DNA from: a virus
Strand: one strand, 5' to 3'
Virus record (IMG/VR): IMGVR_UViG_3300010399_000016
Span: 1-43,733 of that record
Length of the DNA stretch: 43,733 nucleotides
Each line of letters starts with the position of its first letter. Position 1 is the first letter of the stretch. Positions 20,619 to 43,733 of this stretch are shown in pieces. Under the pieces are notes generated by a model. That model was given only the letters and a program-made list of their open reading frames with translations, had not been told where the DNA came from and did no database searches. The translations under genes and the position numbers were made by a program.

Positions 20619-21248
20619 GTGCGACTTATCGATCGGGTTGGCCATCGCTACGAGCGCCTTACCGTCATCTCCCGTGCCCCTAACTCTGGGGTTGGACGTG
20701 ATTGCAATGCCAGATGGAATTGCAAGTGCGACTGCGGGAATTTGGTCTTGGCTTATGGCCAGGACTTGGCGAAGGGTAAGGTAAAATCCTGTGGATGCTT
20801 GAATGCCGAGCGGATCCACAAGCATGGCCATTCGAGAAGCAAGGTTTACGGCCTTTGGAAAGGCATGCTGCAGCGATGCGAGAACCCCAAGGCACCGGCA
20901 TATGAGAACTACGGAGGTCGCGGCATTTCGGTCTCAGCCGAATGGCACGACTTCACGGTTTTCTTGGCCGACATGGGATTTCCTCCCAGCGGAGGCACCA
21001 TCGATCGCATCGACAACAACGGCAACTATCGCAAAGAAAATTGCCGTTGGGCGACGGTAAAAGAACAGCGGAACAATACCCGCCTGAACGTCAGCCTGAC
21101 GTTCGACGGGCGTACGCAAACGATCTCGGAATGGGCCGATGAGCTTGGCTTTACCCGGGAATGCTTGCGGGGCCGCATTCGTGAGGGATGGTCGGTTGAG
21201 GAAACCTTGACGCGACCACTCACTTTCGTCTCTCCGAAAAGGAAATAG
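20619..21248 (+). CDS. Freestanding HNH-like (homing-type) endonuclease (209 aa)
   Basis: GTG at 20619 (MRLIDRVGHRYERLTVIS) has GGAGG six bases upstream and is preferred over a GTG at 20550 overlapping the coat gene. The protein has a CKCDCG and SCGC Cys cluster, then YGLWKGMLQRCENP, NYGGRGISVSAEWHDF and TIDRIDNNGNYRKENCRW, the layout of a phage HNH/AP2-like endonuclease family, and a C-terminal DNA-binding helix repeat (ISEWADELGF, GWSVEETLTRP). It interrupts the structural genes between coat and decoration, brings its own ribosome-binding site and looks less GC-rich, as expected for a mobile homing gene. Confidence 0.75.
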   Translation: MRLIDRVGHRYERLTVISRAPNSGVGRDCNARWNCKCDCGNLVLAYGQDLAKGKVKSCGCLNAERIHKHGHSRSKVYGLWKGMLQRCENPKAPAYENYGGRGISVSAEWHDFTVFLADMGFPPSGGTIDRIDNNGNYRKENCRWATVKEQRNNTRLNVSLTFDGRTQTISEWADELGFTRECLRGRIREGWSVEETLTRPLTFVSPKRK

Positions 21249-21251
21249 CCA

Positions 21252-21809
21252 ATGCCTACAATCGTCTCTCAGTCGATCGAAGGCGTCAATCTTGCGGCGC
21301 TTTACACGGCCTATGACCAGACGGCCGCGATCTCCACCACCAACGACCCGAGCAATCCCGGCCCGCCGTTCAAGGTCGGGACCGAGGTCACCGCGACCGA
21401 TGGCTCACTCTGGGTGTTCACCAAGTTCACGGCCGGCGTGAACCAGTACGACGTTGTCATGATCGACAACTCGACCGGGTTCGCCAAGCAGATCCTTGGT
21501 GGCGGCGCCTCCGAGGCCAATCGGTTCCGCGTCGGCTTCTACCAGAACTCGACCGCGGCCGTGGCGAACAACTTCGGCTGGGTCATGCTGTCGGGCGTCC
21601 CGACCATCAACGTGCTCGGCTCCTGCGCCAAGCTCGTTCAGCTGTACACGACCGACACCAGCGGCAAGCTTGACGACGCGATCGCGACCGGCTCGCAGTA
21701 TCCGGTGCGGAACGTCGTTCTGACCACCACGATCTCGTCTACTACGGCGAGTTCGAATACGGCTCAGGCGGCTTGGCCGTCCATCGGACCGCTGGGGGCG
21801 CTGCTCTGA
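21252..21809 (+). CDS. Probable capsid decoration protein (185 aa)
   Basis: ATG at 21252 has AAAGGAA upstream. The protein is beta-rich with few charged residues (FTKFTAGVNQYDVVMIDNST, RFRVGFYQNSTAAVANNFGW) and a Thr/Ser-rich C-terminus. Small proteins of this type follow the coat gene in many podoviruses and coat the capsid. The assignment rests on position and composition, not on a recognised domain. Its stop overlaps the glycosyltransferase start (ATGA). Confidence 0.6.
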   Translation: MPTIVSQSIEGVNLAALYTAYDQTAAISTTNDPSNPGPPFKVGTEVTATDGSLWVFTKFTAGVNQYDVVMIDNSTGFAKQILGGGASEANRFRVGFYQNSTAAVANNFGWVMLSGVPTINVLGSCAKLVQLYTTDTSGKLDDAIATGSQYPVRNVVLTTTISSTTASSNTAQAAWPSIGPLGALL

Positions 21810-22522
21810 TGACGGGTGGCCCGTCCATATTCATCGGCTACGACGCGCGGGAGGCAGAGGCGTTCAACGTCTGCCGCGCGTCGATCCGGAGGCGCTTGAC
21901 CGCACCGGTTCCCATCCGGTCGCTGATGCTGTCAGACCTGCGCCATCGGGGCTTATATCGGCGCCCCACGGAGGTCCGAGACAGCCGGCTGTGGGATGTC
22001 ATCTCCGACGCCCCGATGGCCACCGAGTTCGCGATCTCGCGGTTTCTGACGCCGATCCTGGCCAAATCGGGCTGGGCGCTGTTCATGGACTGCGACATGC
22101 TTGCGCTCGACAACCTCATTCGGGTGTTCGATCTCGCCGACCCGTCCAAGGCCGTGATGTGCGTCAAGCACGTGCACGAGCCGGCATCCGGGACCAAGAT
22201 GGACGGGCAGTTGCAGACCTTCTACCGGCGCAAGAACTGGTCAAGCTTCTGCCTGTTCAATTGCGAGCACCCTGCGAACGCAGCCTTGACTGTCGACATG
22301 GTCAATACGCTGCCGGGACGTGACCTGCATGCCTTCAGCTGGCTGCAGGACGACCAGATCGGCGAACTTGATCCGGGGTGGAATTTCCTCGTGGGCCACA
22401 CGTCGCGGGATGTACAGCCGAAAATGCTCCACTGGACCAGCGGCGGCCCGTGGTTCCAGGAGTATGCCGAAGTCGACTTCGCGACGGACTGGCGGAACGA
22501 GAGGGACCGCGCTGTATGCTGA
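21809..22522 (+). CDS. GT8-like glycosyltransferase (237 aa)
   Basis: IFIGYDAREAEAFNVCRASI near the start and LFMDCDMLALDNL at 91-103 are the nucleotide-sugar binding region and DxD-type metal motif (D94, D96) of family 8-like glycosyltransferases. A C-terminal HWTSGGPWF segment fits the acceptor site seen in relatives. It would transfer a sugar from an activated donor. The substrate is unknown: virion protein, host glycan or DNA are all possible. It is coupled by ATGA to the decoration gene and overlaps the next gene by seven bases. Confidence 0.8.
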   Translation: MTGGPSIFIGYDAREAEAFNVCRASIRRRLTAPVPIRSLMLSDLRHRGLYRRPTEVRDSRLWDVISDAPMATEFAISRFLTPILAKSGWALFMDCDMLALDNLIRVFDLADPSKAVMCVKHVHEPASGTKMDGQLQTFYRRKNWSSFCLFNCEHPANAALTVDMVNTLPGRDLHAFSWLQDDQIGELDPGWNFLVGHTSRDVQPKMLHWTSGGPWFQEYAEVDFATDWRNERDRAVC

Positions 22523-23799
22523 TCTCGGAGCCATATCGCGCGCTGCAGGCCGATCTTCACGCCCGGTTCGATTACGGGCATGGCGGTGACGCTGCGGAGT
22601 GTGCGGAGATCGTGCGCGGGCTGGCTCCGTCAAGCGTGCTGGACTACGGCTGCGGCCAAGGGCATCTGGCGCGGCTGCTTGAGGGAATCGAGGTCGAGGA
22701 ATACGACCCGGCCATCCCCGGCAAGCAGGACGAACCCGGCAAGGCTGACGTGGTGGTCTGCGCCGATGTCCTGGAGCACATCGAGCCCGAGTTGCTGGGC
22801 AACGTGCTGCTGCATCTCTACGCCTGCACGCGGCGGCATATCGTGCTGGTGATCGCCACCGGGCCGTCCCGCAAGGTCATGGCGGACGGGCGGACGGCTC
22901 ACCTGATCGTACGTCCGGCGGACTGGTGGCATTCCCGGCTGTCCGGCCTGTTCGAACTCGATCGGTTCGAGGATCGCTCGGTTGCCGGCCGAGGCGTCCT
23001 GGCGGTGTGCCGACCGCGGGTGTTTACGGTGCCACCGCTGCTCCCGGTCGTGAAGGTCCGCAGCACGTCGGCAGTGTCCGATGAGATGCGGAATGAGCAG
23101 GTCCGGGCAAACTGTGCGCGGATTCCGGCACGGCTGGAGATCAACCTGCCGGCGCATAACCGGGTGGCACATCTGGCCTGCTTCGGCCCCTCCTTGGCTC
23201 AGACGTGGCCTGAAATCGCCATGGGCGCGGCAAGGGGCGGTGACGTGTTCACGGTCTCGGGGGCGCACCGGTTCCTGATCGACCGTGGAATCGTCCCACT
23301 GGCGCATATTGACTGCGACCCGCGTCCGCACAAGGCAGCGCAACTCGGTGAGCCTGATCGCCGGGTGCAGTACTGGCTCGCCTCGTGCATCGCGCCGGCC
23401 TATCTCGACAAGCTGGGGGGCTACGATGTCCGACTGTGGCACAGCTACAACGGCAAAGCCTCGCGCATTGCGTTCCAGCTTGATCCCGGCTGCGAAATGA
23501 TCGTTGGCGACGGCTCGGTGGGGCTGCGCGCGATGTCGATCCTATACACGCGCGGGTACCGCCGTTTCGAGATCCACGGCATGGATTGCTCGTTCTCCGG
23601 AGGCGAGGCACACGCTGGCGAGCATCTTGGCAAGCCTCAGGACGCTGTCTCGGTCAAGTGCGGTGATCGCTGGTTCGAGACTTCGGCGCCGTTCGTGACT
23701 TACGCCCGGTTCTTCCACAAGCAGCTTTCCATGATGCTGGACGCGGATATCCGGCTGCATGGGGACGGCCTCTTGCAGCACATGAACAAGGAGACCTGA
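22516..23799 (+). CDS. Fusion of SAM methyltransferase and DUF115/MptE-like domain (427 aa)
   Basis: ATG at 22516 overlaps the glycosyltransferase end. Residues 41-52 (VLDYGCGQGHLA) are SAM-binding motif I, and DVLEHIEPE at 84-92 is the typical class I post-motif, so the N-terminal half is a small-molecule or glycan-type methyltransferase. From about 218 a DUF115 (MptE-like) domain begins: FGPSL (223-227), GDGSVGLRAM (331-340) and HGMDCSF (354-360). DUF115 proteins are best known from flagellin and surface glycan modification (Maf family). Together with the adjacent glycosyltransferase it suggests a two-gene modification unit inside the virion operon. Confidence 0.8.
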   Translation: MLISEPYRALQADLHARFDYGHGGDAAECAEIVRGLAPSSVLDYGCGQGHLARLLEGIEVEEYDPAIPGKQDEPGKADVVVCADVLEHIEPELLGNVLLHLYACTRRHIVLVIATGPSRKVMADGRTAHLIVRPADWWHSRLSGLFELDRFEDRSVAGRGVLAVCRPRVFTVPPLLPVVKVRSTSAVSDEMRNEQVRANCARIPARLEINLPAHNRVAHLACFGPSLAQTWPEIAMGAARGGDVFTVSGAHRFLIDRGIVPLAHIDCDPRPHKAAQLGEPDRRVQYWLASCIAPAYLDKLGGYDVRLWHSYNGKASRIAFQLDPGCEMIVGDGSVGLRAMSILYTRGYRRFEIHGMDCSFSGGEAHAGEHLGKPQDAVSVKCGDRWFETSAPFVTYARFFHKQLSMMLDADIRLHGDGLLQHMNKET

Positions 23800-25740: not shown

Positions 25741-26054
25741 CCCTTTTCGTGCCCAACACCGACAGCGTGGTCCAGGCGGTAACGGCCGTATCGGCGACGT
25801 TGGCATTGCCGACCGCGACGCTCGGGACCAACCCGGCGCTGCGGCTGAAGCGCATGGCAGGCACGTGCAACCTAATCTGGGTGCGCTTTGGTGCCTCCGG
25901 AGCGGTCACTGCGGCGCAGACGAACTCTATGGTCATCCCCGTGACCGGTGAAACGATCATCGTCGGCATCAAGACCGGTTCGACGCATGTCGCGTTGCTG
26001 GCCGATGGCTACACCAACTCGTTCAACATTACGCAGGGCAATGTGCCGGTATGA
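25737..26054 (+). CDS. Beta-rich structural protein, paralogue of 14163 gene (105 aa)
   Basis: ATG at 25737 overlaps the adaptor stop. WVRFGASGAVTAAQ, a central IPVTGETIIVGIKTGSTHVA and a final strand repeat the layout of the protein at 14163. Being sandwiched between two tail proteins makes a tail or capsid decoration role likely. The stop overlaps the next start (ATGA). Confidence 0.6.
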   Translation: MTLFVPNTDSVVQAVTAVSATLALPTATLGTNPALRLKRMAGTCNLIWVRFGASGAVTAAQTNSMVIPVTGETIIVGIKTGSTHVALLADGYTNSFNITQGNVPV

Positions 26055-27694
26055 GGAAGCTGGCATACCAGAGCGGATCGGGGCTCCAAGTGCCGGGCCG
26101 GGTGCAGATTGCTGTTCCTATGGTGGCGACCGGCGCATCCGTTCCGGCACCCATCGAGGGTTGGGATGCCGTCTCGCCGATCGCCGCCATGTCGCCGAAG
26201 CGGGCGATTCAGCTGGACAACTTCTTCCCTCAGCCCGACTTCGTGGAGCTTCGTCGCGGCTTCATTCGGCACGCCGATACGGCAACCACGCTGCCGGTCG
26301 AGACCCTGATGGCCTACGAGGGCGTGGCTACCCGTCGCCTGTTTGCTGCGTCGGATGACAGCATTTTCGACGTGACCGGAGGTACCTCCACCGTCCAGGT
26401 CACCGGGCTCACTAACGCGCGGTTTCAGTACATCAACTTCGCGACGACCGGGGGCCTGTTTCTCTACGCCGTCAATGGAGCGGATGACCCACAGTACTAC
26501 GATGGTACGGTGTGGGCTGTAGCAACCATTACAGGCATGCCAACCGCAGCGATCGATGTGAACGCGCACAAAAACCGCATCTGGTTCGTGGCGCAGGACT
26601 CGTCCGACGCCTACTACCTTCCGGTCGATTCGATCCAAGGCGCGGCGACGAAATTCCCTCTGGGGGGGCTGTTCACTGAGGGCGGCCACCTGCGCTCGAT
26701 GGGCACGTGGTCGATCGATGCCGGCGATGGCCCTGACGACTATGCCGTGTTCCTCTCGTCGCGTGGCCAAGTGGCGATCTATCGTGGGGTGGACCCGGCG
26801 GTCGACTTCGTTCTCGTCGGCGTCTTCGACATGGGTGCCCCGATCGGGCAGCGGTGCCTGACGCGCGTCGGAGCGGATATCGCCATCATCTCGATTGACG
26901 GTGTGGTGCCGCTCTCCCGCGCCATGATCTTCGAGCGCGCCGCGGTGCAGAAGGTGGCGCTGACCGAGCGCATCCAGCGCGTGATGAACCAATCCGCGCG
27001 GGACTGGGGCGATCACTTCGGCTGGCAGCTGATCAGCTACCCTAAGGGCACGAGGGCTATCCTCAACGTGCCTGTCGTCGAGAACGAGACGCAATACCAG
27101 TACGTCATGAACACGCTTAGCGGGGCATGGTGCCGCTTCTTGGGCATGAATGGCTCGTGCTGGGAACTGCTCAACGATACGCTCTACTTCGGCGGCAATG
27201 ATGGCGTGGTCTACGAGGCCGATACGTCGGGAACGGACCACGGCGCGGTGCTGCACGGTGACCTGCGCACGGCGTTCAATTACTTCGGCCAGCGGGGCCG
27301 ACAGAAGCGCTGGACCATGTGCCGGCCGCAGCTGACGACGGACGGCCAGGTCAATCCGGGCTTGGCTCTGAATGTCGACTTCCGCACCGATGCGCCGATC
27401 TCGACTCCGACCACAATTGCCACTTCTGCGGCGCTCTGGGACGAGGCGCTGTGGGATGTCGACGTGTGGCCCACTGAAACGTCGGTGCAGGCCAACTGGA
27501 CCACCGTGGCGGGGCTCGGCTACTGCGCCTCCATCCGCATGGCGGTGGATGTGTCGAGCGGAAGCACGGGCCTTGCGGCGGTGTGGGGCGTAAGCCTGTG
27601 GGGCTTTGGGACATGGGGCGAGGTCACCACCCCCGAGATCGCGCTGCAGGTGAACGCCTTCGACATCACGTACGAAGTGGGGTCGATCGTATGA
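26051..27694 (+). CDS. Tail hub / tail tubular protein B or P22 gp10-like (547 aa)
   Basis: The protein starts MRKLAYQSGSGLQVPGR and has repeated beta-blade-like units (GFIRHADTATTLPVETLMAY, ARFQYINFATTGGLFLYAVN, IDVNAHKNRIWFVAQDSSDA), consistent with a beta-propeller hub as in podovirus tail proteins. Two similar C-terminal ALWDEALWDVDVW and VWGVSLWGFGTWG strings are characteristic. It lies just after the adaptor. Whether it corresponds to T7 gp12 or P22 gp10 cannot be settled by eye. Confidence 0.75.
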   Translation: MRKLAYQSGSGLQVPGRVQIAVPMVATGASVPAPIEGWDAVSPIAAMSPKRAIQLDNFFPQPDFVELRRGFIRHADTATTLPVETLMAYEGVATRRLFAASDDSIFDVTGGTSTVQVTGLTNARFQYINFATTGGLFLYAVNGADDPQYYDGTVWAVATITGMPTAAIDVNAHKNRIWFVAQDSSDAYYLPVDSIQGAATKFPLGGLFTEGGHLRSMGTWSIDAGDGPDDYAVFLSSRGQVAIYRGVDPAVDFVLVGVFDMGAPIGQRCLTRVGADIAIISIDGVVPLSRAMIFERAAVQKVALTERIQRVMNQSARDWGDHFGWQLISYPKGTRAILNVPVVENETQYQYVMNTLSGAWCRFLGMNGSCWELLNDTLYFGGNDGVVYEADTSGTDHGAVLHGDLRTAFNYFGQRGRQKRWTMCRPQLTTDGQVNPGLALNVDFRTDAPISTPTTIATSAALWDEALWDVDVWPTETSVQANWTTVAGLGYCASIRMAVDVSSGSTGLAAVWGVSLWGFGTWGEVTTPEIALQVNAFDITYEVGSIV

Positions 27695-28107: not shown

Positions 28108-29111
28108 TGCAAGCCCCGTCAGCCCCGGCCGCGCCAGATCCAGTGAAGACTGCGCAAGCTCAGGCGCAGATGAACAAAGACACGGCTGTAGCCCAGTATG
28201 GTCTTAACGCGACAAATCAGGTCACGCCGCAAGGCACGCTCACCTATCGTCAAATCGGCAAGTGGGACGACGGCACGCCTCGGTTCGAGGCCACGCAAGC
28301 ATATTCGCCTCAGGAGCAGGCCCTTGCTGATCTGACGAACCAGACTCAGCAGAACCTGGGCAACATCGGAGTCAGCCAGTCCGCCAAGATCGGAAACCTG
28401 CTCAATCAGCCGGTGACGCTCGGGAACGAGGCGACCGAGGCTAGGCTATACGACCTTGGCAGCAAGCGGCTCGACCCGAGGTTCCAGCAGGAGCAATCGG
28501 CCCTCGAAACGCAGTTGATCAACAAGGGCATCCGGCCCGGCTCGGAGGCGTGGAACAATGCGCAGACCCAATTCGGGCAGAACAAGAACGACGCCTACAA
28601 CCAGCTTCTCCTGCAGGGCCGCGGCCAAGCGATCCAGGAGGGTTTGACCGAGCGCAACCAACCTATCAACGAAATCACGGCGTTGATGAGCGGTTCTCAG
28701 GTCTCGCAGCCGAACTTCACGAATACGCCTCAGCCGGGCGTGGCTCCGACCGACTACATCGGTGCGGTCGGCCAGTCGCTCAATCAGCAGAACGTCGGCT
28801 ACAACGCGCAGCTTCAGAATCAGCAGAACATGATGTCGGGCCTGTTCGGGCTCGGCAAGACCGCGCTCGGGGGCTGGATGATGTCCAGCCGCAAGGCGAA
28901 AACCGATATCGAGAAGGTCGGGAAGCTCGACAATGGGCTGAACCTGTACAAGTTCCGCTATAAGCCCGAGTTCGGCGGCGGACTGATGCAACTTGGCCTG
29001 ATGGCCGATGAGGTCAAGAAGGTCGCGCCGGATGCCACGGCGGAAGTCATGCCGGGGATTGATGCCGTGAACTATACGGCTGTGGCGGAGGCGCTCAATG
29101 GACCCGCTTGA
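28107..29111 (+). CDS. Virion protein with C-terminal S74-like chaperone domain (334 aa)
   Basis: ATG at 28107 has TGGAGG seven bases upstream. The first 250 residues are Gln/Asn/Ala-rich and helical, as in podovirus ejection or internal proteins. Residues about 258-332 (SSRKAKTDIEKVGKLDNGL, LGLMADEVKKVAPDATAEVM) match the peptidase S74 intramolecular chaperone domain normally found at the end of tail spikes and fibres. The mixture suggests a trimerising fibre or internal protein. It is not clear if the domain self-cleaves here. Confidence 0.75.
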   Translation: MQAPSAPAAPDPVKTAQAQAQMNKDTAVAQYGLNATNQVTPQGTLTYRQIGKWDDGTPRFEATQAYSPQEQALADLTNQTQQNLGNIGVSQSAKIGNLLNQPVTLGNEATEARLYDLGSKRLDPRFQQEQSALETQLINKGIRPGSEAWNNAQTQFGQNKNDAYNQLLLQGRGQAIQEGLTERNQPINEITALMSGSQVSQPNFTNTPQPGVAPTDYIGAVGQSLNQQNVGYNAQLQNQQNMMSGLFGLGKTALGGWMMSSRKAKTDIEKVGKLDNGLNLYKFRYKPEFGGGLMQLGLMADEVKKVAPDATAEVMPGIDAVNYTAVAEALNGPA

Positions 29112-29421
29112 CCTTCTCGCGATCGGAATGCAGCCGTCCGGAGGCGATGCCGGCGCCGTTGGCTCGTCGATCATGGACATGCTCAAGGCCGCGCGACCGT
29201 CGCCCGAGCAGGCCAAGCGCATGGATGCCATCCAGCGCATCAGTGGGGTGCTCGACGCGGCGCCGCCCACCCAAGGGCCGCAGCCGGCCACGGCGATGCC
29301 TCAGCATGCCGCGCCAGTCGTTCCGCAGGTGGCGGCGCCCCCACCGCGCCGGCCGGGCGGCATGATGGCGCTGGGCGCGTCCCAACTGCCGATCATGGGG
29401 ATGGGGCGCCCATATGGTTGA
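29098..29421 (+). CDS. Pro/Met-rich virion-region protein (107 aa)
   Basis: ATG at 29098 has GGAGG five to six bases upstream and overlaps the preceding gene by 14 bases. The N-terminal half is helical (SPEQAKRMDAIQRISGVLD) and the second half is Pro/Ala/Met-rich and probably disordered. It sits among ejection-type genes. No domain was recognised. Confidence 0.6.
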   Translation: MDPLDLLAIGMQPSGGDAGAVGSSIMDMLKAARPSPEQAKRMDAIQRISGVLDAAPPTQGPQPATAMPQHAAPVVPQVAAPPPRRPGGMMALGASQLPIMGMGRPYG

Positions 29422-30943
29422 CAGTGGCACCTATACCCCCGAGGCGATTGCCCGGCGCATGCAGATTGCGCAGGTATTGCTCGATTCCAGCAAGTCGAAG
29501 CCGGTCCAGCATTGGGCTCAGGGCCTCGACGAGCTGGCCAAGGGCGCAATCGGCGGAGCGATGTTCGGCCAATCGGAGGAAGCCGAGCGCAAGGCGAAGT
29601 ACGACAACAATGCCGCGCTTTTTGAGGCTTTCCATCTTCCACCACAGGCACCGTACGTGCCGCAATACCAGAGCCCGATTGACCGGGTGGCCTCGCTGTT
29701 CGGTGGCGGATCGTCGCCGGCCGCCGCTGCACCTTTGGAGCCCTCGCCTGCCCCGCCCATGGGGGCCGCTGGTCCTACCGCGATGAGCGCGCCGCCGCCT
29801 GTCAGCCGTGCCGGACCGTCCCTGCCGGTCACCCCTGCTGCGATTGATGATCCGAACAGCGATTACAATCGGTCATTGCTGGCGCCGCCTCCTGCTGGCC
29901 GCGCTGGGGTCGCCGCGGCCCTGAGCCGGCCCGAGGTGATGCCGACGCCGAAGGTGTGGGGCGACAGCGAGGCAGAGGCTGCCGGCCTCTACGAGCCGCG
30001 TCCCGGCGGCCAGCCGTCAGCGCTCGCGCCGGCCGCGCCCATGCCTGTGAGTCCTGCCGCGCCTCCGCCTCCCACGGCCAGCACCGGCCTTCTCGCCGAC
30101 ATGCCCATGGAGAAGCGCCGGCAGATTGCCGCGTTGCTCTCCAATCCCGGCACGCAGGCTATGGGCCAGACCTTGCTTGCCAAGACTCTCGGGGAGAGCG
30201 GGAACACCGACGAGATCAAGGAATACAATCTGTCCGTCCAGCAGGATCGGCAGGCAGGCCGCACGCCGCCGAGTTTCTACGACTGGAAAACGGGACTCAA
30301 GAAGGCTGGCGCGCAAACTCTCACGATTGACCAGAGGGGAGAGAGCGAATTCCAGAAGATTGGCGCCAAGCATCAGGCCGAGCGATTCAACGAACTCGCG
30401 GCGGACGGTCAGAGCGCCAAGCAGATGCTCTCCGACATGAACACGCTTGCCGATCTCGGAAAAACCATCGGCACTGGCAAGGGGGCTGAGGTCAAGGCGG
30501 CGTTGGGCCCCTATGCCGAAGCACTGGGAATCAAGGTTGAGGGCCTGAGCGACATCCAGGCATACGAGGCCATCGTCAACCGGGTCGCTCCGTCGCTTCG
30601 TGTGAAGGGGAGCGGTGCCCAATCCGACTACGAGCTGAAGAACTTCGTCAAGTCTCTGCCTTCGCTCGGGAACACCCCGGAAGGCAATGCGATCATGAAG
30701 ACCACGCTTGATGGCCTCTACCAGAACAAGGTGCGCGCGGCAGCGATCGGAGCCAAGGCGCTGAGCGGGAAAATCACCCGAGATGAGGCCGAGGAGCAGT
30801 TGCAGAAGCTGCCCGACCCCATGGAGGGCTATCGCGAGTTCCAGAAGCAGCGCAAGGAGCCGGCTGCCACGCCGGCCGCAGCTGGTCAGCCTGACCGTTC
30901 CGCGATCGAGGCGGAGATGAAGCGGAGGGGACTCAAGCCGTGA
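29414..30943 (+). CDS. Probable internal virion / DNA ejection protein (509 aa)
   Basis: ATG at 29414 overlaps the preceding gene. The first 80 residues are helical (ARRMQIAQVLLDSSKSKPVQ, LAKGAIGGAMFG), residues 100-230 are a Pro/Ala low-complexity tract, and the rest is helical (KQMLSDMNTLADLGKTIGTG and following). This large helical, low-complexity make-up between the tail hub and the fibres is typical of podovirus ejection proteins. No lytic transglycosylase motif was seen. Confidence 0.65.
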   Translation: MVDSGTYTPEAIARRMQIAQVLLDSSKSKPVQHWAQGLDELAKGAIGGAMFGQSEEAERKAKYDNNAALFEAFHLPPQAPYVPQYQSPIDRVASLFGGGSSPAAAAPLEPSPAPPMGAAGPTAMSAPPPVSRAGPSLPVTPAAIDDPNSDYNRSLLAPPPAGRAGVAAALSRPEVMPTPKVWGDSEAEAAGLYEPRPGGQPSALAPAAPMPVSPAAPPPPTASTGLLADMPMEKRRQIAALLSNPGTQAMGQTLLAKTLGESGNTDEIKEYNLSVQQDRQAGRTPPSFYDWKTGLKKAGAQTLTIDQRGESEFQKIGAKHQAERFNELAADGQSAKQMLSDMNTLADLGKTIGTGKGAEVKAALGPYAEALGIKVEGLSDIQAYEAIVNRVAPSLRVKGSGAQSDYELKNFVKSLPSLGNTPEGNAIMKTTLDGLYQNKVRAAAIGAKALSGKITRDEAEEQLQKLPDPMEGYREFQKQRKEPAATPAAAGQPDRSAIEAEMKRRGLKP

Positions 30944-32667
30944 CCGACCTGACCGCCCTTTCCGATGCGGACCTTCTGGCGCTGGCGCGTGGCAATTCCG
31001 CCACACCCGCAGCCAAGCCGCTTTCGGAAATGACGGATGACGAGCTGCGGGCGGCACATCAGGCTGTCTCGATCCCGATGGATGTCATCCAGTCCGCTGG
31101 CTCGGAGGCTGCCAAGTCGTTCGTGAACACGCCGCGGGCAATCCGTGACCTGCCCGAATTGCCGACGCGAGCCCTCACTTGGATCGCAGAGCATGTGCTT
31201 CCCGAAGGCGTGTCCAGCCAGATCAAGGGCGCTCGGGAGGCGCTCCAGGGGCTCTACGCCCCCGATACGATTGACCGCGCGACGGCCAAGGTTGAAGCGG
31301 CGATTCCGCAGCACGAGCCCGAGACGAAGTATGGAGAGTACGCAAAGACCGCCGGCGAGTTCGTCGGATCTCCGCTCAGCTATCTCGGGCCGGGCAGCAT
31401 TGTCGCCAAAATCCTGACCGCGACCACCGGCGGGGTCGGATCGGAAGCGGCCGGGCAGGCAACGAAGGGCTCAAAGTACGAGGAATTGGCCCGGCTACTT
31501 GGTGGGGCCGCAGGCGCTGCCGGGCCCAGCGCCGCCGCCCGTGTCGTGACGCCGCTCCCGATCTCCGCGCGCCGCCAAGCGCTCGTCGATACACTGACGC
31601 ATGAAGGCATTCAGCCGACTGCCGGCCAGATTACCGGTCGGCCAGCGCTGCGCTATGCCGAAAGCGCGCTGGGGGACTATCCGGGCGCGGGCGGACAAGC
31701 TGCAAGAGCGCAGGAGCGCTCGGCCGAGCAGTTTACCGAGGCGGCCATGGGGCGCACGGGCGAAGTCGTTCGCGCTGCGCCTGACGAGCCCATTCTGGCC
31801 AATCCGGAACGGATGACCGCGGCTAGGGATCGGATCGCGGGCGAGTTCAATGACCTGTCCGCCCGCAATACGCTGATCTTTGACCAGCCATTCGCGAACG
31901 AAATCCATCGGATCGCCACGGACTACGGCCGCACGCTTCCGGTGCAGCAGCGGGAGATCGTTGCGAACTACATCCAAGACTTGACCAATGCTGCGGCGCA
32001 TCCGCCTGGCGGCCTCGCGGCGCTGCCGGGCGAAATATACCAGCGCACTCGGTCGCGACTTTCGGCGCAGTCCAATGCCATGCGGCAGGCTGATGGTCAT
32101 TTCTCCCGCGTACTCGGCGAAATGCGGGATGCCCTCGACGCCGCCATGGAGCGGTCGATCCAAGCCACCAATCCGGCCGATGCTGGCGCATGGGCCGCCG
32201 CTCGCCGGCAGTACGGAAACATGCGGGACATCGAGCGCGGCGCCGCGGCCTCTGGCGAGCAGGCGGCCGAGGGTCTGCTGTCGCCCATGCAACTGCGGAC
32301 GGGCCTTGCATCTGGCGCCAACCGGGGTCGCTATGCCCGAGGCGAGGGCAACTTGGGGCCGCTGGTGCGGGCCGGCAACGCTATCCTGCGACCGCTGCCG
32401 CAGTCCGGATCAATGCCACGTGTGGTCTCAGCGGCCATCCCAAGCGCGATTGGCTCAGCGGCGGGAGCGCTCACCGGTGGCCCGCCAGGCGCAGCGCTCG
32501 GTTCCATGGCCGGCGTGGCGGCGCCCGCTGCAATTGGCCGACTGCTGATGTCCCGGCCGGCGCAGGCATATCTCGGCAACCAGCTCCTCTCTCCTGCCAT
32601 CCGCGATCACTCAACCCGTGCCGCCATCGCTCGGGCGTTGCTGGCCGATGCTATGAGCGAAAGGTAG
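30940..32667 (+). CDS. Probable DNA ejection protein (575 aa)
   Basis: GTG at 30940 overlaps the preceding stop. The protein is Ala/Gly/Arg-rich with many amphipathic helices, Gly-rich hydrophobic segments near 155-180 and near the C-terminus (IPSAIGSAAGALTGGPPGAA, GSMAGVAAPAAIGRLLM) that could insert in a membrane. P22-type ejection proteins form a conduit across the host envelope; this assignment is by position and composition. No transglycosylase or peptidase motif was recognised. Confidence 0.65.
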   Translation: MTDLTALSDADLLALARGNSATPAAKPLSEMTDDELRAAHQAVSIPMDVIQSAGSEAAKSFVNTPRAIRDLPELPTRALTWIAEHVLPEGVSSQIKGAREALQGLYAPDTIDRATAKVEAAIPQHEPETKYGEYAKTAGEFVGSPLSYLGPGSIVAKILTATTGGVGSEAAGQATKGSKYEELARLLGGAAGAAGPSAAARVVTPLPISARRQALVDTLTHEGIQPTAGQITGRPALRYAESALGDYPGAGGQAARAQERSAEQFTEAAMGRTGEVVRAAPDEPILANPERMTAARDRIAGEFNDLSARNTLIFDQPFANEIHRIATDYGRTLPVQQREIVANYIQDLTNAAAHPPGGLAALPGEIYQRTRSRLSAQSNAMRQADGHFSRVLGEMRDALDAAMERSIQATNPADAGAWAAARRQYGNMRDIERGAAASGEQAAEGLLSPMQLRTGLASGANRGRYARGEGNLGPLVRAGNAILRPLPQSGSMPRVVSAAIPSAIGSAAGALTGGPPGAALGSMAGVAAPAAIGRLLMSRPAQAYLGNQLLSPAIRDHSTRAAIARALLADAMSER

Positions 32668-33990: not shown

Positions 33991-36900
33991 ATGTCGAGGA
34001 TCTGGAAAACGCTTATTGTTCTCGCAGTTCTTGCGTCGTTCCCTTCTATTGCGGTAGCGCAGTGCAGCGGACAGTTTGCGGCCGGAACGGTATGCGGAAA
34101 CCTGACAGGCGCACAGGCATTGCCGAAGCCTGTCATCTCCACATTGATAGGTTCGGTGAATTGGTCCAAAAATCTTTTGAACAATCCGGATTTCAATACA
34201 TGGACACGATGCCCAACATTTCTATGCACGGTCACCATTACCAACGGCGGGTATACCAGCAGCACCAACTTCGTGATCGCGCCGACTGGGCTTGTCGGGG
34301 CGTGGCCAGATAGCTGGCAGATAAGCTCGGGTGGTGGAGGTACGGTAACCACTCGAACGACCGTGTTTACGCCGTCGAATCAGACAGCGGTCAGCGCTTA
34401 TCCTACGCGGTACTTCGAAGGCCAGTGGACTGTTGCCCCAACGGTAGGGAGCACGACGGAAAATCCCAACCCCTGCGCCGGCCCGAATGCCTCGTTCGGA
34501 ACACTGACTGGTTGCCGCGCAACTTACCTCGAAAATAACAACACGCCGCAACTGCCAAATATCGGAGCGGTCGCTGGTCAGACCGTTACGATGAGCGTGT
34601 GGGTACGCGCCGGCCGCGTTGTCTCTAACGCGGTGAACAACGGCAGCGGACTTTGCCGCCTGACTGTGGAAAGCACGACGGATTGGACCACCGGGCAGTC
34701 CGCTACGGTTAGCGGTATCGGCGGTGCCACGACGTGCAACGGATCTGGAACGATCACGGTCATCAACGGCACAACGGTCGATTTCGCGGCTTCGTTTTCG
34801 GGATCGTACGATACAACCAGCGATCCCCGGATGAACGTGCAGCCCGTGTTCATCACCCCGATCGTCTACTACAGCATGGGCTATCAGACGTGGCTCGGAG
34901 GGCAGGCCCCGGCCTCAGCGGGCGGCTACTTCATGAACACTGGCTCTGATGGTCAGTTTTACGTGTATCAAGCCACTGCTGGCACGACGACCGGCCTGCC
35001 CATTACTGCGGTCGCCAATAACGGAGCCGGTCTGTGCCGGCTGACCGTCAGTTCAACGGCAGCATGGACGACAGGGCAAGCAGCGACCGCAGCCGGTGGC
35101 AACCTTCCTGCGGGATGCTCTGGATCGCACATTTTGACCGTCGTAGACGCCACGCATATCGATCTCGCGACGACCACATTCGCTGGCGGATACACCACCG
35201 GCGCCTATGTTGGCGTTCCTCCGGTTCATGCGACGATTGGCGCCTCTGCCAGCGACGGTGGCGTGACGTGGAGAAACGCGGGATTTGCGAAGGGACGCAC
35301 TTACGACCTTTACCAGGGTCAATACGCATCCGGCGCGATTACCTCGTCAGGCTATAATCAAGGAGCCGCAACGCAGGTCACGGGAGGTACTGACAATCCG
35401 ATTGGAAATTCTTGCTCGGTCGGCGCGGTGTGGGTCCAGTGCGTGGTCACTATTCCTATGCCGGCCCCGCTTTATAACAACACAGGGGATTACGCTTGGT
35501 CAGCCACCGATCCGGTACGTCAGCTTCTTCCTGCCGTTAACTACAATGGTAATTTTGGCTTCCCATCGAGCGGCGTTGTTGTGGCGTCTGTCGACGCGAT
35601 CGGGCCAATTGGCGTGCAGCGTATCGATTATGCGCAATTCCAGCTTGAACGCGGAACCCAGGCGACCGCTTTCTATCCCCCACCGCCTCCGATCGAGCGG
35701 CTTACGTCAATTAAATTTCCAGATATCCTCGGGTATCTACCGGATGCTCAAAGCCCCAGCCAGACAACGGGGTTGTTGACGCAAACGCGCTACAACAGCG
35801 ATGGAAACGTTGCCTTGTTCGCGAGGCGCACAATCGATAGCGGAGTTGCGGGGTTCAGCGTCGCCAACGGTGATGGAGTTTCTGGCAACCCAACGCTTGG
35901 ATTGTCGGGAGCGACCGTTCAACTCTCGCCGTCGCTTCTGGTATATAATAACGCGATAACGTCACTGACTGGCGTCCCATCCGGGACGATCCTGACCGCA
36001 AGAAACGTTGACGCCACCTCAACCAGAATCCTCGCTGACACTGCCGGAACGAGTGTGTCTTCGTCCTTCACCGGACGCTTGGCGCGAGGCACAATCGCTG
36101 CTCCTACGGCCCTGCAGTCCGGCGATACCATGGTGCTGATGCAGGCATTCGGCTATGGATCTACGGGTTACTCTGCAACTGCACGGGGCACGTTCTCCTG
36201 CTCGACAAGCCAGATATGGACGGATGCGAACCAAGGCACTGTCTGCGCGGTCGCTTCCACGCCGAACGGATCGACGACACCCGCGAACGTAATGACGTGG
36301 GAGAACAGCGGCGGCGTGACAGTGCCCTCGACTGTGACCGGGGGCGACAAGGGCGCCGGGACGATTAACTCATCCGGGCTTCACTACGTTGCCGGCAATG
36401 CCGTTGGCTCCAGCGCAACATCTCCGGTTACCCTCAACACGACGACCGGTGCCATTGGATGCGCGACCTGCGGCGTGACCGGGACTGGACTGAACCAGTT
36501 CGCATCAACAACTAGTGCCCAGCTTGCTGGGGTGATCTCTGACGAGACTGGAAGCGGTTCTGCTGTATTCGGCACCGCGCCCACCCTCACAAACGCCACA
36601 CTTGCGACGAGGCTGAACAAGGGCGTCTACATCATCGGAATGTCGGCTGTAACCGGCATGTCGGTGACCGGTACGTTGGTCGAAACCACGCTCGCCACAA
36701 TCTCTGTGCCGGCGAACGCGATGGGTGCTAATGGCGCGCTTCGCATCACTGCACAATGGAGCAAGACCGGAACTGCGGGAACTGGCGAGCCAAGAATAAA
36801 GTTTGGGGGTACCACATTCGTAGATGGTGGAGCGGCGGGCGCCACGGTGATTTCGGGGCGAACCCAGGTCCAGATCCACAATCGAAATGCAACTAATTCT

Positions 36901-37074
36901 CAAGTGGCAATGGCTGCAAATCAGGCCAATTTCTCATTTGGCAATCTTACTGCAACCGTTACCAGTGCTATTGACACAACTTCCAGCCAGGATGTCACTT
37001 TCACATGCCAGCTCGGAAACACGGGCGACACCTGCACGCTGGAGAGCTACTCTATTGAGCTACTTGAACCATAG
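33991..37074 (+). CDS. Large tail fibre / receptor-binding protein with signal peptide (1027 aa)
   Basis: The chosen start (ATG at 33991, MSRIWKTLIVLAVLASF) follows GGGATGATGAA and avoids overlap with the previous gene. Residues 1-22 form a signal peptide ending IAVA before QCSGQFAAGTVCGN. Two Cys-paired beta repeats (about 212-273 and 339-407, each with LCRLTV, WTTGQ and a second Cys) lie in a carbohydrate-binding-like region (NLLNNPDFNTWTRC onward). A central fibre part follows, and the last 150 residues form a jelly-roll-like tip (TLVETTLATISVPANAMG). The signal peptide is unusual for a virion component. A longer in-frame start at 33928 would bury it. Confidence 0.8.
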   Translation: MSRIWKTLIVLAVLASFPSIAVAQCSGQFAAGTVCGNLTGAQALPKPVISTLIGSVNWSKNLLNNPDFNTWTRCPTFLCTVTITNGGYTSSTNFVIAPTGLVGAWPDSWQISSGGGGTVTTRTTVFTPSNQTAVSAYPTRYFEGQWTVAPTVGSTTENPNPCAGPNASFGTLTGCRATYLENNNTPQLPNIGAVAGQTVTMSVWVRAGRVVSNAVNNGSGLCRLTVESTTDWTTGQSATVSGIGGATTCNGSGTITVINGTTVDFAASFSGSYDTTSDPRMNVQPVFITPIVYYSMGYQTWLGGQAPASAGGYFMNTGSDGQFYVYQATAGTTTGLPITAVANNGAGLCRLTVSSTAAWTTGQAATAAGGNLPAGCSGSHILTVVDATHIDLATTTFAGGYTTGAYVGVPPVHATIGASASDGGVTWRNAGFAKGRTYDLYQGQYASGAITSSGYNQGAATQVTGGTDNPIGNSCSVGAVWVQCVVTIPMPAPLYNNTGDYAWSATDPVRQLLPAVNYNGNFGFPSSGVVVASVDAIGPIGVQRIDYAQFQLERGTQATAFYPPPPPIERLTSIKFPDILGYLPDAQSPSQTTGLLTQTRYNSDGNVALFARRTIDSGVAGFSVANGDGVSGNPTLGLSGATVQLSPSLLVYNNAITSLTGVPSGTILTARNVDATSTRILADTAGTSVSSSFTGRLARGTIAAPTALQSGDTMVLMQAFGYGSTGYSATARGTFSCSTSQIWTDANQGTVCAVASTPNGSTTPANVMTWENSGGVTVPSTVTGGDKGAGTINSSGLHYVAGNAVGSSATSPVTLNTTTGAIGCATCGVTGTGLNQFASTTSAQLAGVISDETGSGSAVFGTAPTLTNATLATRLNKGVYIIGMSAVTGMSVTGTLVETTLATISVPANAMGANGALRITAQWSKTGTAGTGEPRIKFGGTTFVDGGAAGATVISGRTQVQIHNRNATNSQVAMAANQANFSFGNLTATVTSAIDTTSSQDVTFTCQLGNTGDTCTLESYSIELLEP

Positions 37075-37086
37075 GGATAGCCTGCA

Positions 37087-37290
37087 ATGAGACAGATGAG
37101 AATTCTGATCGGGCCGACTTTCTGTGTTTCATTGTTGGCTTCGGTGGCACATGCCCAGCAACCCTCCCCACTTGAGCGGGCGTTGAGCGAGAAGCTCCTG
37201 CAAGAGATCAACGCCAGCGTCCAATGCGGAGCGGCGCTGATTACGGCGCAAGAGAAGCTCAAGGACGCGGAGAAGGAGAAAGCGAAATGA
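37087..37290 (+). CDS. Small exported coiled-coil protein (67 aa)
   Basis: ATG at 37087 has AGGGA upstream. Residues 1-23 form a signal peptide (GPTFCVSLLASVAHA), followed by QQPSPLERALSEKLLQEINA and a charged helix (AQEKLKDAEKEKAK). It would be periplasmic. This type of protein often follows the fibre in related phages. It might be a spanin-like or assembly factor, but no lipobox or anchor is present. Confidence 0.65.
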   Translation: MRQMRILIGPTFCVSLLASVAHAQQPSPLERALSEKLLQEINASVQCGAALITAQEKLKDAEKEKAK

Positions 37291-37318
37291 CCCAGAACGC
37301 TCGGCGCAGGGGATAAAC

Positions 37319-37804
37319 ATGGGAATGTACAACCGCGAAGACAACATGCGGGCAATGGGACTGGAGCCATGGGAGGTTCCGACTGCCGACGCGCAGTCCA
37401 CGAAAGGAAAGTCGTTCATGAACTGGCAGCAAGCCCTGTCCGCCCTGCGTACCGCCATTTCGGCCGGCGGCCCGTTGAGCGGGCTCCTGATCGCGCTGGG
37501 GTACACACACACGGAGGATCTCTCTAAGGGCGTCGAGGCGTTGATTGTCCTCGCGTCGGTCATCCCGCCCGTGCTGGGCGGCGTGTGGGGGTGGTTCACG
37601 CACACCAAGAGCAACGCCGTTGCGGTAGTCGCGGCAATGGATGGCCCCGAGAAGCAGAACGCTTTCCTCGGCGTCCCCGACGCGCTCAAGGTCGTCGCCG
37701 CAGACGCCGTCCCCGGCGTCCAGAGCATCAAGATCGCGCCAGGCGCCCCGGCGGCACTCACCGCCATCGCCGAAGACCGCGCGCACCCCAAGGTGACCCA
37801 ATGA
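37319..37804 (+). CDS. Putative holin (161 aa)
   Basis: Hydrophobic segments at 46-62 (SAGGPLSGLLIALGY) and 72-93 (VEALIVLASVIPPVLGGVWGWF) separated by a short acidic loop, then a soluble tail, resemble the Pam3-gp28-type phage holin family. ATG at 37319 has AGGGGA six bases upstream. A second in-frame ATG at 37418 (MNWQQALSAL), preceded by AAAGGAA, would give 128 aa, so two products are possible. A holin would permeabilise the inner membrane at the end of infection; no endolysin was found near it. Confidence 0.6.
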   Translation: MGMYNREDNMRAMGLEPWEVPTADAQSTKGKSFMNWQQALSALRTAISAGGPLSGLLIALGYTHTEDLSKGVEALIVLASVIPPVLGGVWGWFTHTKSNAVAVVAAMDGPEKQNAFLGVPDALKVVAADAVPGVQSIKIAPGAPAALTAIAEDRAHPKVTQ

Positions 37805-38169
37805 CCCGGATCGCCGTTGTCCTCCTCTCCGGGCTGGCGCTCGCCGGCTGCAACCTGGGCACGTTGGAACAGCGTCTTCAGCGAGCGCGCGAGATCGTAC
37901 GGCTCGTCAACTCCAGCGCCATATCGATCGAAGAAGTCGTGCGCGAGGCGTGCCCCACCATCCAGAAGCTGAATGCCGGCGCCACCGCCATCGCCTGCGT
38001 GGCCAAGGCGTCGGGCGAGCGGAAAGACCGGATCGCCAAGGTCAGCGAGTACGGCGACCGGTTCTGCCGGAACCCGACATCTAAGAGCCTCGCCGACATG
38101 ATGAACAACGCCAAGGTCGGGCTTGAAGCGGCGATTGCGGTCACGGCAGCGGAGTGCCCCACGCCGTGA
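37801..38169 (+). CDS. Small lipoprotein (122 aa)
   Basis: ATG at 37801 overlaps the holin stop. The start MTRIAVVLLSGLALAGC ends in a lipobox with lipidation at C17. The mature part is helical, with three further cysteines (EACPTIQKL, IACVAKAS, RFCRNPTS) and a C-terminal AECPTP, which may form disulphides. It could act as an outer spanin or an outer-membrane exclusion lipoprotein; the length is greater than the usual Rz1. Confidence 0.7.
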   Translation: MTRIAVVLLSGLALAGCNLGTLEQRLQRAREIVRLVNSSAISIEEVVREACPTIQKLNAGATAIACVAKASGERKDRIAKVSEYGDRFCRNPTSKSLADMMNNAKVGLEAAIAVTAAECPTP

Positions 38170-38426
38170 TATGGACGCCGATCCCACCGACAAAGGCGTG
38201 GCCACGATGGGTTATCGTCCTGATCCTCGTGGCGCTCGCCCTTGCCATGGTTTTCGGTATCTCGCGGGCCAAGGGAGCCGCGCCGGCTGAGCGCGCATGC
38301 ACCTCTGACGCGGTCCGGTACTGCATGCCGTACATCAACAGCCGGCCGAACATGATCGCGTGTCTGCAGGCGCATAGGTCCGAACTCTCGCCGGCATGCC
38401 GGTCCGTCATCAGGAAAGGGAAATAG
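38166..38426 (+). CDS. Membrane-anchored Cys-rich repeat protein (86 aa)
   Basis: The preferred start is GTG at 38166, which overlaps the lipoprotein stop as GTGA; a GTG at 38154 is also in frame. Residues 14-31 are one transmembrane helix (VIVLILVALALAMVFG). The rest has four cysteines (C45, C53, C66, C78) in the order of the Cys-rich GLG1-like repeat (DAVRYCMPY, MIACLQAHRSELSPACRS). That would place an oxidised, disulphide-bonded domain in the periplasm. Function unknown. Confidence 0.65.
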   Translation: MIWTPIPPTKAWPRWVIVLILVALALAMVFGISRAKGAAPAERACTSDAVRYCMPYINSRPNMIACLQAHRSELSPACRSVIRKGK

Positions 38427-38428
38427 CC

Positions 38429-38578
38429 ATGCTCGGGACCATCCTGCTCGTCTTCGCATTCGTGCTGGCGTGCCTCGCGGCGTTCATCCCTGGACCGATC
38501 TGGGACCGGGTACACCTCGGGTGGGCGTCTCTGGCGTTCTACTTCGCCTCGCTTCTGTTCGGGCACATGATCCGCTGA
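38429..38578 (+). CDS. Small two-helix membrane protein (49 aa)
   Basis: ATG at 38429 has AAAGGGAAA upstream. Helix 1 is LGTILLVFAFVLACLAAF, then a short turn (IPGPIWDRVHLG), then helix 2 (WASLAFYFASLLFG). Two-span proteins of this size could be pinholin-like or antiholin-like. The stop overlaps the next ATG (TGATG). Confidence 0.65.
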   Translation: MLGTILLVFAFVLACLAAFIPGPIWDRVHLGWASLAFYFASLLFGHMIR

Positions 38579-39072
38579 TGGCCCTGTCCGACGCCACATC
38601 GATTGCGGCCATTGGCGCGCTGGTGGCGATGGCGACCACTGCGTCGCCGATCATTCTGTCCGTGATCACCGCGACTCAGCGGCGCAAGGAGAAGGTCGAG
38701 GACTACGCTCGCCAGGATGGCGTGGCAGCGCAAGCCCGCGAGGCCGCGCGGCTGCTGCTGGCCGCTAACGAGCGTGTGGCAAGACAGACGGCCGCCGCCG
38801 CAACCGAGACGCAAAGCCAGTTGAAGCAGATCCACACGCTGGTGAACTCCAAGCTCACCGAAGAAATGAAAAGAAGCCTAATCGCACTCAAAGCACAGAT
38901 CGTCCTTCTCCGCCGGGTCATAAATCTAGACTTTGCCGCCAACACCGAGACAATAGAGGCAGACCGCGCCATGCTGTCGAGCCTCGAACGAACAGTGGAG
39001 GAGTTGAGCAGTTCACTTACGGAGCGGGATGCAGTGACCGAGGCCGCGGCCGATGCGCGGGCGGCAGTATGA
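38578..39072 (+). CDS. Inner-membrane coiled-coil protein, i-spanin-like layout (164 aa)
   Basis: ATG at 38578 is coupled to the preceding stop. An N-terminal helix (IAAIGALVAMATTASPIILS, about 9-31) is followed by TATQRRKEKVEDYARQDGVA and a long charged coiled coil. I recall this N-terminal pattern as a conserved phage family near lysis genes. The layout (anchor plus periplasmic coiled coil) suits an inner spanin, and the lipoprotein at 37801 could be its partner, but Rz/Rz1-type nesting is absent. Confidence 0.65.
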   Translation: MALSDATSIAAIGALVAMATTASPIILSVITATQRRKEKVEDYARQDGVAAQAREAARLLLAANERVARQTAAAATETQSQLKQIHTLVNSKLTEEMKRSLIALKAQIVLLRRVINLDFAANTETIEADRAMLSSLERTVEELSSSLTERDAVTEAAADARAAV

Positions 39073-39401
39073 ATGATCGGAGCCCCGGCAGGCTGCAACC
39101 CGCCGGCGCCCCTAACCACGACGACCAAGAGGCGATCGAAGTGGCTGAAGAAAATAAAATCACAGATGCGGCAAAAGAAGGGTCGCGCCGCGCGTTGAGC
39201 CAAGAGGATCACGCCATCCTTGCGGACCTGATCAAGCGCGAAAAGCGTAGCCGGATCATCCGAGAGTGGCTATGGGTTATCTGGCATCGAGCGCGGGAAT
39301 GGGCGCTCGTCTACGTTGCAATTACGACTGCTATCGTCGCCGGTCGAGAGCAGATCGTGACTTTCCTTCATTGGATTGGCCTCGGAGGAGGCAAGCCATG
39401 A
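39069..39401 (+). CDS. Single-span membrane protein (110 aa)
   Basis: ATG at 39069 overlaps the preceding stop. The first 60 residues are polar, then REWLWVIWHRAREWALVYVA and a hydrophobic helix (about 77-93), with a short Gly-rich C-terminus. The end overlaps the next gene by ATGA. Function unknown; part of the membrane protein block. Confidence 0.6.
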   Translation: MNDRSPGRLQPAGAPNHDDQEAIEVAEENKITDAAKEGSRRALSQEDHAILADLIKREKRSRIIREWLWVIWHRAREWALVYVAITTAIVAGREQIVTFLHWIGLGGGKP

Positions 39402-39895
39402 GCCTTGGCCGGCGATCCGTCGTATGCCATTTCGCGTTCATGATCGGCCTCGTTCTGCTTTCGGCGGCGGAGGTGGCGGAGATCTGGTCACAGTTTCGGC
39501 CGCCGGTTCGACTGTCCGCGATCTACCTTAAGTTTCATGATCCGAGAGAAGACGGAACTGTACGCCCCGCTGATCAAGCTGACCTGATCAAGTGGGGCTG
39601 GTGGTATCGTCTATGCGCGGGCGAGGCTGTCGAGACCATCACCGACAATCAGGGCAATCCGTGGAAGGACCACGAGCCACGAATCCACCCGATCAAGACT
39701 CCGACCAAAATCGGAGAGATCGTGACCGGCCCGCGGCCTCAGCCTTGGGTAGTGCCGCCTGATCTCCCGGACGGGAAATGGATGCTCAATCTGGAACCAC
39801 GTATGTGGTGCTGGGTTGGCGAGCGCCTGTTTCCGATCCAGACGCCTCGGGTGCAGGCGCCGTTTACGGTTCGCCGCGAGACTTTGTCCAAGTAG
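39398..39895 (+). CDS. Membrane-anchored extracytoplasmic protein (165 aa)
   Basis: ATG at 39398 overlaps the upstream stop. One N-terminal helix (about 10-27, AFMIGLVLLSAAEVAEI) precedes a Trp/Pro/Arg-rich domain with KWGWWYRLCAG and EPRMWCWVGERLFPIQTPR, the two cysteines probably pairing in the periplasm. No peptidoglycan-hydrolase motif was recognised. Two bases separate its stop from the next ATG. Confidence 0.6.
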   Translation: MSLGRRSVVCHFAFMIGLVLLSAAEVAEIWSQFRPPVRLSAIYLKFHDPREDGTVRPADQADLIKWGWWYRLCAGEAVETITDNQGNPWKDHEPRIHPIKTPTKIGEIVTGPRPQPWVVPPDLPDGKWMLNLEPRMWCWVGERLFPIQTPRVQAPFTVRRETLSK

Positions 39896-39897
39896 CA

Positions 39898-40083
39898 ATG
39901 CTTCCCGGGTGGCCTCAGACATGGGCGGACTGGGCTGCCGCTACGGTCGTATTCAGCGCGGTCGTAAGCGGCATGACGTGGGGCTGCGTGATATGGAACG
40001 GCTTTCGCCACCGGGCGACGCAGAAGCTTCTGCGGGCGCTAGCGAAGGCTGTGGCGGAGATCCGGGAGGATCAGCCGCATTGA
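39898..40083 (+). CDS. Small single-span membrane protein (61 aa)
   Basis: ATG at 39898 (MLPGWPQTWADWAAATVVFS) begins a protein with one helix at about 12-33 and a basic amphipathic tail (FRHRATQKLLRALAK). It is the last rightward gene. Its stop (40081-40083) overlaps the end of the convergent leftward operon by 13 bases, leaving no room for a separate terminator. Confidence 0.6.
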   Translation: MLPGWPQTWADWAAATVVFSAVVSGMTWGCVIWNGFRHRATQKLLRALAKAVAEIREDQPH

Positions 40084-43377: not shown

Positions 43378-43540
43378 TTGAGTTTTCCCTCCACATAAGC
43401 CGCGCTGCTGAGATTTCCTGCTGAGCGGCATTCTTGGCGCACCAAAACGCCGCCCGGATTTCACGGAAAAGAGTCGCCAAATACGAGAAGACAACGATTG
43501 GCGGCAACAATGCAATCAGTAGAAACTTGCGCAGTTTCAC
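43274..43540 (-). CDS. Small single-span membrane protein (88 aa)
   Basis: GTG at 43540-43538 overlaps the upstream stop (GTGA), with GGAGGG four bases before it. Residues 1-25 contain a transmembrane helix (KLRKFLLIALLPPIVVFSYL), then an amphipathic helix (LFREIRAAFWCAKNAAQQ). The frame continues 104 bases into the ERF coding region, so the C-terminal third is read from DNA that also encodes the ERF N-terminus. That tail is Gly/Ala/Arg-rich and may be under no constraint of its own. Confidence 0.6.
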   Translation of the reverse strand: MKLRKFLLIALLPPIVVFSYLATLFREIRAAFWCAKNAAQQEISAARLMWRENSNERKDQGAAGGRGCHDGAEQPARGARSAAGSVQG

Positions 43541-43733
43541 CAAGCCCTCCGCCCGATGTTCACGCCCGCCCCGAGCACCACCGGCATGAGCGCCGGGTCC
43601 ATCGGCTGGGCGTCCCGCACGCGGACCTTGCGCCGGTGGCCTAGGAAGCCCGCCACGCCAACCATGCCCCCGACTGCGCCGGCTGCACCCATGGCCGCGA
43701 TGGCCGCATCAGGGATGCCTTTCCGGGCCACCA
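43537..43733 (-). CDS. Exported single-span membrane protein, C-terminal part (gene cut by window edge)
   Basis: This is the remainder of the gene that begins at 418. The segment 43611-43733 duplicates 1-123, and 43537-43610 supplies the last part of the frame, including RRKVRVRDAQPMDPALMPVV and the TGA at 43537-43539. The transmembrane helix (DAAIAAMGAAGAVGGMVGVA) lies in the duplicated part. The stop overlaps the GTG of the next gene. Confidence 0.8.
   Translation of the reverse strand, partial: VARKGIPDAAIAAMGAAGAVGGMVGVAGFLGHRRKVRVRDAQPMDPALMPVVLGAGVNIGRRAW
43611..43733. repeat. Terminal redundancy, copy 2 (circular overlap)
   Basis: Exact copy of 1-123. Removing one copy gives a 43,610-bp circle with a continuous gene across the join. 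Confidence 0.95.

Follow-up and report, generated by a model that had tools for sequence, protein, structure and literature searches.

How does a tailed phage break out of its host when no enzyme that cuts the cell wall can be recognised in its genome? The question is raised by a podovirus, IMG/VR record IMGVR_UViG_3300010399_000016, which we analysed over its full length of 43,733 bases (the window), and in particular by nine consecutive genes for exported or membrane proteins at positions 37087–40083. An earlier note on this DNA had placed the lysis genes in this block and had seen no endolysin in it. By the usual account an endolysin and a holin are present in every tailed phage (for example PMC5707550), and a literature search of limited coverage and wording found no direct precedent for a tailed phage without an endolysin. 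Our analysis shows the block to be a lysis operon whose endolysin slot is empty.

All nine open reading frames are present on the plus strand as previously listed, and each product carries a signal peptide, a lipobox or a hydrophobic span. They follow the tail and ejection genes, which extend to 32667, and the tail fibre genes, which extend to 37074. The eight junctions comprise four overlaps of 4 base pairs (bp), one overlap of 1 bp, two gaps of 2 bp and one gap of 28 bp, and such overlapping or tight spacing points to translational coupling rather than to reading frames that arose by chance; the block is a single coupled operon.

The second gene of the operon, hol161, had been proposed to encode a holin with two possible starts (37319 and 37418), an assignment now supported by a weak Pfam match, by conservation and by prophage synteny. 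The protein has one strong hydrophobic segment (residues 71–89) and one weaker, and its residues 37–94 align across nearly the entire Phage_holin_10 model (Pam3 gp28, PF23987; E=0.0011), at 19.4 bits against a curated cut-off of 27; it differs from this family in its long conserved C-terminal tail and its N-terminal extension, and had no match in PHROGs or NCBIfam. It is 93% identical to its counterpart in a near relative, G001, and under strong purifying selection (ratio of nonsynonymous to synonymous divergence, dN/dS, 0.07). A search of 266 genomes from the genus of Bradyrhizobium jicamae, host of the related locus L048, gave three matches (E=2e-5 to 5e-4). In the Bradyrhizobium-group prophage L080, a homologue of 95 amino acids (aa) with 36% identity begins exactly at the residue equivalent to Met34 of hol161. 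Immediately in front of it is a 210-aa protein with a C-terminus that matches solved peptidoglycan-binding domains and an N-terminus that, read from the sequence, resembles a peptidase; a small lipoprotein comes after the homologue. This synteny, together with the start at Met34, means that the holin assignment is well supported, that the internal start at 37418 is probably ancestral and that the neighbour missing from the window is the endolysin. The 33 codons of the N-terminal extension (37319–37417) show lower synonymous divergence than the rest of the gene (proportion of synonymous differences, pS, 0.19 versus 0.45), possibly because translation signals for the internal start are carried there.

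The slot in front of the holin is also empty in G001 (40,440 bases, mostly 83–93% DNA identity in the structural genes), where the final gene for a fibre protein runs into the start of the holin gene. The block of G001 continues with a lipoprotein (44% identical to lipo122 of the window), a span protein with 77 aa, a counterpart of the 165-aa protein b165 that has 154 aa (26%), and tm61 (77%). G001 has no terminal repeat and is therefore possibly incomplete. Scans with the ejection protein yielded 35 viral loci, and a scan of genome contigs with the alignment of this protein returned just two bacterial loci. In most of the more distant relatives in which the slot is in view, a lysin precedes the holin: of the 24 slot-candidate proteins examined with Pfam, GH24 was found in 10, amidase_3 in two, and GH108, M15 and Phage_lysozyme2 in one each. 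A further slot type, found in L016, L021, L029 and L030, is related to a 'peptidoglycan-binding protein' of Bradyrhizobium phage ppBjS10J-1 (56% identity). It has no PHROG match and, as far as tested, no match in Pfam or NCBIfam, which tells us that profile libraries can overlook a lysin within this group. The loci L035, L043 and L045/L046, all record fragments, have no lysin in view.

The slot is thus occupied in relatives by interchangeable lysins, with endolysin, holin and lipoprotein at the same place, and this, together with the synteny of the holin, bears out the block as the site of the lysis genes. The cassettes of Bradyrhizobium-group prophages and podoviruses (L080, ppBjS10J-1 and IMG/VR loci L013–L048) resemble the block in their site behind the tail fibres and in their several small membrane proteins, often including a lipoprotein, and the L080 holin has the same core. 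They differ in carrying an endolysin directly before the holin, whereas the window has at that position only SP67, a short signal-peptide protein which is absent from G001 and had no meaningful family match in Pfam, PHROGs or NCBIfam.

The gene was not lost off the end of a contig, since the record carries an exact direct terminal repeat of 123 bp and the genome of 43,610 bases is very probably complete. We searched the block and the fibre gene as well as 57 further likely genes against Pfam and PHROGs, and 204 other reading frames (all frames, 70 aa or longer) against Pfam. The families recognised by Pfam in the window concern replication, DNA modification, packaging and tail proteins; wall-hydrolase families (GH24, GH108, GH19, M15, amidases, SLT, CHAP and others) gave no significant match inside or outside the block. 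Local profiles were also made from the GH24, M15, GH108, amidase, GH19-like and L016-type lysins of relatives; they found nothing in the window or in G001 (E at least 0.05), and profile searches revealed no recognisable virion-associated lysin in the window. PHROGs gave two labelled leads, both outside the block: phrog_1047 ('tail associated lysin') and phrog_5107 ('amidase'), the latter the only endolysin label among the likely genes and a mislabelled tail nozzle. With that exception the profile searches agree with the earlier observation that no glycosidase, amidase, peptidase or transglycosylase motif is visible in the genome.

The reading that we prefer, to which we give about an even chance, is that of a late lysis operon with a holin, a spanin-like pair and a wall-cutting phage protein of unrecognised family. 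In this scheme hol161, the well-supported holin, would time the lysis event. The proteins b165, on the inner membrane, and lipo122, on the outer membrane, could play a spanin-like role; they are the only other larger exported proteins of the block kept in G001, and lipo122 is o-spanin-like by position. The enzyme that cuts peptidoglycan would have to be a phage protein whose family escapes both Pfam and PHROGs; its gene would most likely be among those common to the window and G001, and the classical exchangeable endolysin gene before the holin would have been lost from this lineage. The operon shares with two-component spanins (Rz/Rz1) the presence of a lipoprotein of outer-membrane type alongside a protein predicted to lie in the periplasm with an anchor in the inner membrane; the difference is that this anchored protein, b165, is predicted to be a beta-sandwich, not a coiled coil. 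A match of cys86 to an Rz-like spanin profile (phrog_1026, E=0.0042) was rejected, as it covers the membrane span only, and no other spanin profile matched in the block.

Several points weigh against this reading. None of the genes stands out as a candidate enzyme, the exported block proteins common to both phages are small, and b165 and lipo122 diverge fast (26–44% identity), which a conserved enzyme would not be expected to do. Topology is what suggests the spanin-like roles, and early orphan genes or virion proteins may be the source of the wall-cutting activity. A complete genome, a supported holin, an empty slot and close relatives narrow the search to a handful of genes, and its outcome would be either a new lysin family or a mode of lysis so far described for small single-stranded phages.

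The wall may also be cut by a protein encoded outside the block, be it an early orphan or a virion protein that has this as a second role. Such a case amounts to the preferred reading with another location, and we consider it possible, if somewhat unlikely. Provided that lysis works the same way in both phages, the protein acting on the wall should be found among the genes they share, or be a virion protein with a second role. Genes that occur in both but were not detected in eight more distant genomes comprise hol161, lipo122, tm61, 17199–17879, 29098–29421 and several early genes, to which b165 is added through its weak G001 counterpart; the orphans among them include 17199–17879, 29098–29421, 807–1049, 1183–1566 and an exported protein at 43537–418. 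A virion location has a parallel in L026, which has no endolysin in the usual slot and carries GH24 at the N-terminus of a 533-aa ejection protein (8025–9626). Against it, neither ejection gene of the window (29414–30943 and 30940–32667) has a lysin domain in Pfam, and the match of the second to phrog_1047 (E=2e-4) was rejected because the matching region is also conserved in relatives whose lysins are encoded separately. The protein at 43537–418 (43537–43610 joined to 1–418, minus strand) has 163 aa, with a signal peptide, a Cys pair, a Pro-rich linker and a C-terminal span; its gene belongs to the early ERF operon, spans the circular junction, is well conserved in G001 and was not seen in more distant relatives.

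We regard it as unlikely that the phage has no endolysin of its own, with the holin collapsing the membrane and lysis being finished by host wall enzymes or by a small membrane protein, such as tm61, acting as an inhibitor of wall synthesis. No lysin, virion-associated ones included, was detectable in the window, while most relatives have one or both, and tm61 is one of the few genes of the block that both phages retain, under clear purifying selection (dN/dS 0.19). In size only, tm61 and tm49 match the class of single-gene lysis proteins (amurins). However, the arrangement in endolysin-bearing relatives is classical, the literature offered no tailed-phage precedent within the limits given above, and an unrecognised family is the simpler cause. 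Still less probable is that a lineage of tailed double-stranded DNA phages has dropped its peptidoglycan hydrolase and lyses by a holin together with small membrane proteins, which would either inhibit wall synthesis or set host wall enzymes free.

The earlier note had singled out b165 as a candidate for an endolysin of new fold, which would be exported via its N-terminal signal anchor and possibly released in the manner of signal-arrest-release (SAR) endolysins. By the positive-inside rule some 125 aa lie in the periplasm, and the G001 counterpart, found at the same place, conserves W69, R71, C73, E76, H97, K100 and C138. Nevertheless, we find this proposal doubtful. At 26% identity and a nearly saturated dN/dS of 0.61, b165 diverges far more than other late proteins of the two phages, which are 93–100% identical. 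No relatives were found in phages or, beyond G001, in viral contigs; the 266 genomes of the L048 host genus gave noise only, a match in Roseobacter CRP-345 was judged to be due to chance, and a sequence search of PDB returned nothing meaningful. The AlphaFold2 model, built from two sequences, is of low confidence (predicted local distance difference test, pLDDT, 60.6), with a helix at 3–33 and strands between 73 and 158. Of the structure-based searches that had been suggested, that of b165 returned in Foldseek/VIA weak matches (PDB E > 0.1; Z up to 5.7), mostly to immunoglobulin-like (Ig-like) domains such as those of factor XIII, FimC/PapD and GH2 enzymes. No lysozyme, amidase or peptidase fold was listed, the model being too weak for this to exclude one. 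The model suggests a membrane-anchored Ig-like beta-sandwich, typically a binding fold, which may serve as a binding or scaffold domain.

The structure search was decisive for the 547-aa protein behind the phrog_5107 match (E=3e-119), the only profile match to a known endolysin. Its AlphaFold2 model (pLDDT 74.8) matched in Foldseek the tail nozzles of Pa223, VP1, P22, Sf6, SU10 and T7 (best E=1.6e-19), and no His is conserved among 20 aligned sequences; a zinc amidase requires a conserved His. The gene, called amidase in the RefSeq entries for Mx8 and Sulfitobacter phages, is elsewhere annotated as stabilization protein, tubular tail B, neck, head closure or hypothetical, and is also present in relatives with a separate endolysin. 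There is thus practically no chance that it is a known endolysin hidden under its label: the fold is that of the podovirus nozzles (P22 gp10, Sf6 gp8, T7 gp12), which have no role in lysis, and the 'amidase' label, which gives such genomes an ordinary look in automatic annotation, is wrong.

Table 1 Features of the lysis block and related genes.
Feature	Coordinates	Strand	Description	Basis
SP67	37087..37290	+	67 aa, Sec-type signal peptide; directly behind tail fibre gene	sequence
hol161	37319..37804	+	161-aa holin (well supported), two hydrophobic segments, soluble conserved C-terminal tail, 33-aa N-terminal extension	
hol161, alternative start M34	37418..37804	+	128 aa; preceded by ribosome-binding-like stretch GAAAGGAAAG	
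lipo122	37801..38169	+	122-aa lipoprotein, LAGC lipobox, no Asp at +2, four further Cys	sequence
cys86	38166..38426	+	86 aa, Cys-rich, membrane-anchored; periplasmic side	positive-inside rule
tm49	38429..38578	+	49 aa, two hydrophobic spans by eye	sequence, hydropathy
cc164	38578..39072	+	164 aa, N-terminal span, then long charged part	sequence, hydropathy
tm110	39069..39401	+	110 aa, C-terminal span	sequence
b165	39398..39895	+	165 aa, inner-membrane-anchored, periplasmic by topology; predicted Ig-like beta-sandwich, two conserved Cys	
tm61	39898..40083	+	61-aa single-span protein, N-out; kept in G001	positive-inside rule
Tail nozzle protein (outside block)	26051..27694	+	547 aa	phrog_5107 label 'amidase', AlphaFold2 model, Foldseek
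Terminase	12233-13684			
Portal	14662-17202			
Major capsid	19528-20553			
L016-type endolysin-like proteins	L016 14813-15667; L021 14758-15465; L029 11441-12217			

The lipoprotein lipo122 is under weaker purifying selection (dN/dS 0.45 against G001) and had no meaningful match in Pfam, PHROGs or NCBIfam; relatives of lipo122 and cc164 were sought in phages and none was found. The genes cys86, tm49 and cc164 are absent from G001. For cys86 the GTG at 38166, which overlaps the preceding stop (GTGA), is most likely the start, a longer alternative beginning at 38154; besides the spanin profile it weakly matches Pfam Cys_rich_FGFR (E=0.034). Positive residues after the span of cc164, a putative coiled coil, place its charged part in the cytoplasm, and the hydrophobic span of tm110 is the weakest of the block (Kyte-Doolittle maximum 1.41).

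The major capsid protein is 54% identical to that of ppBjS10J-1, 46% to that of Stenotrophomonas phage BUCT555 and 43–44% to those of Myxococcus phages Mx8 and Mx9; these relatives, together with L048 and L080, make a Bradyrhizobium-like alphaproteobacterium the probable host. At 33991–37074 a large tail fibre-like protein is encoded that has as its N-terminus a classical Sec signal peptide (MSRIWKTLIVLAVLASFPSIAVAQ/C), and a 188-aa protein of the fibre region of L013 (11115–11681) likewise begins with a signal peptide. An HNH endonuclease gene (20550–21248) lies directly 3' of the capsid gene, and a glycosyltransferase/methyltransferase-MptE-like module (21773–23799) stands between the capsid and tail genes; this module resembles that of G006, a distant relative, more closely than that of G001 and has apparently been exchanged.

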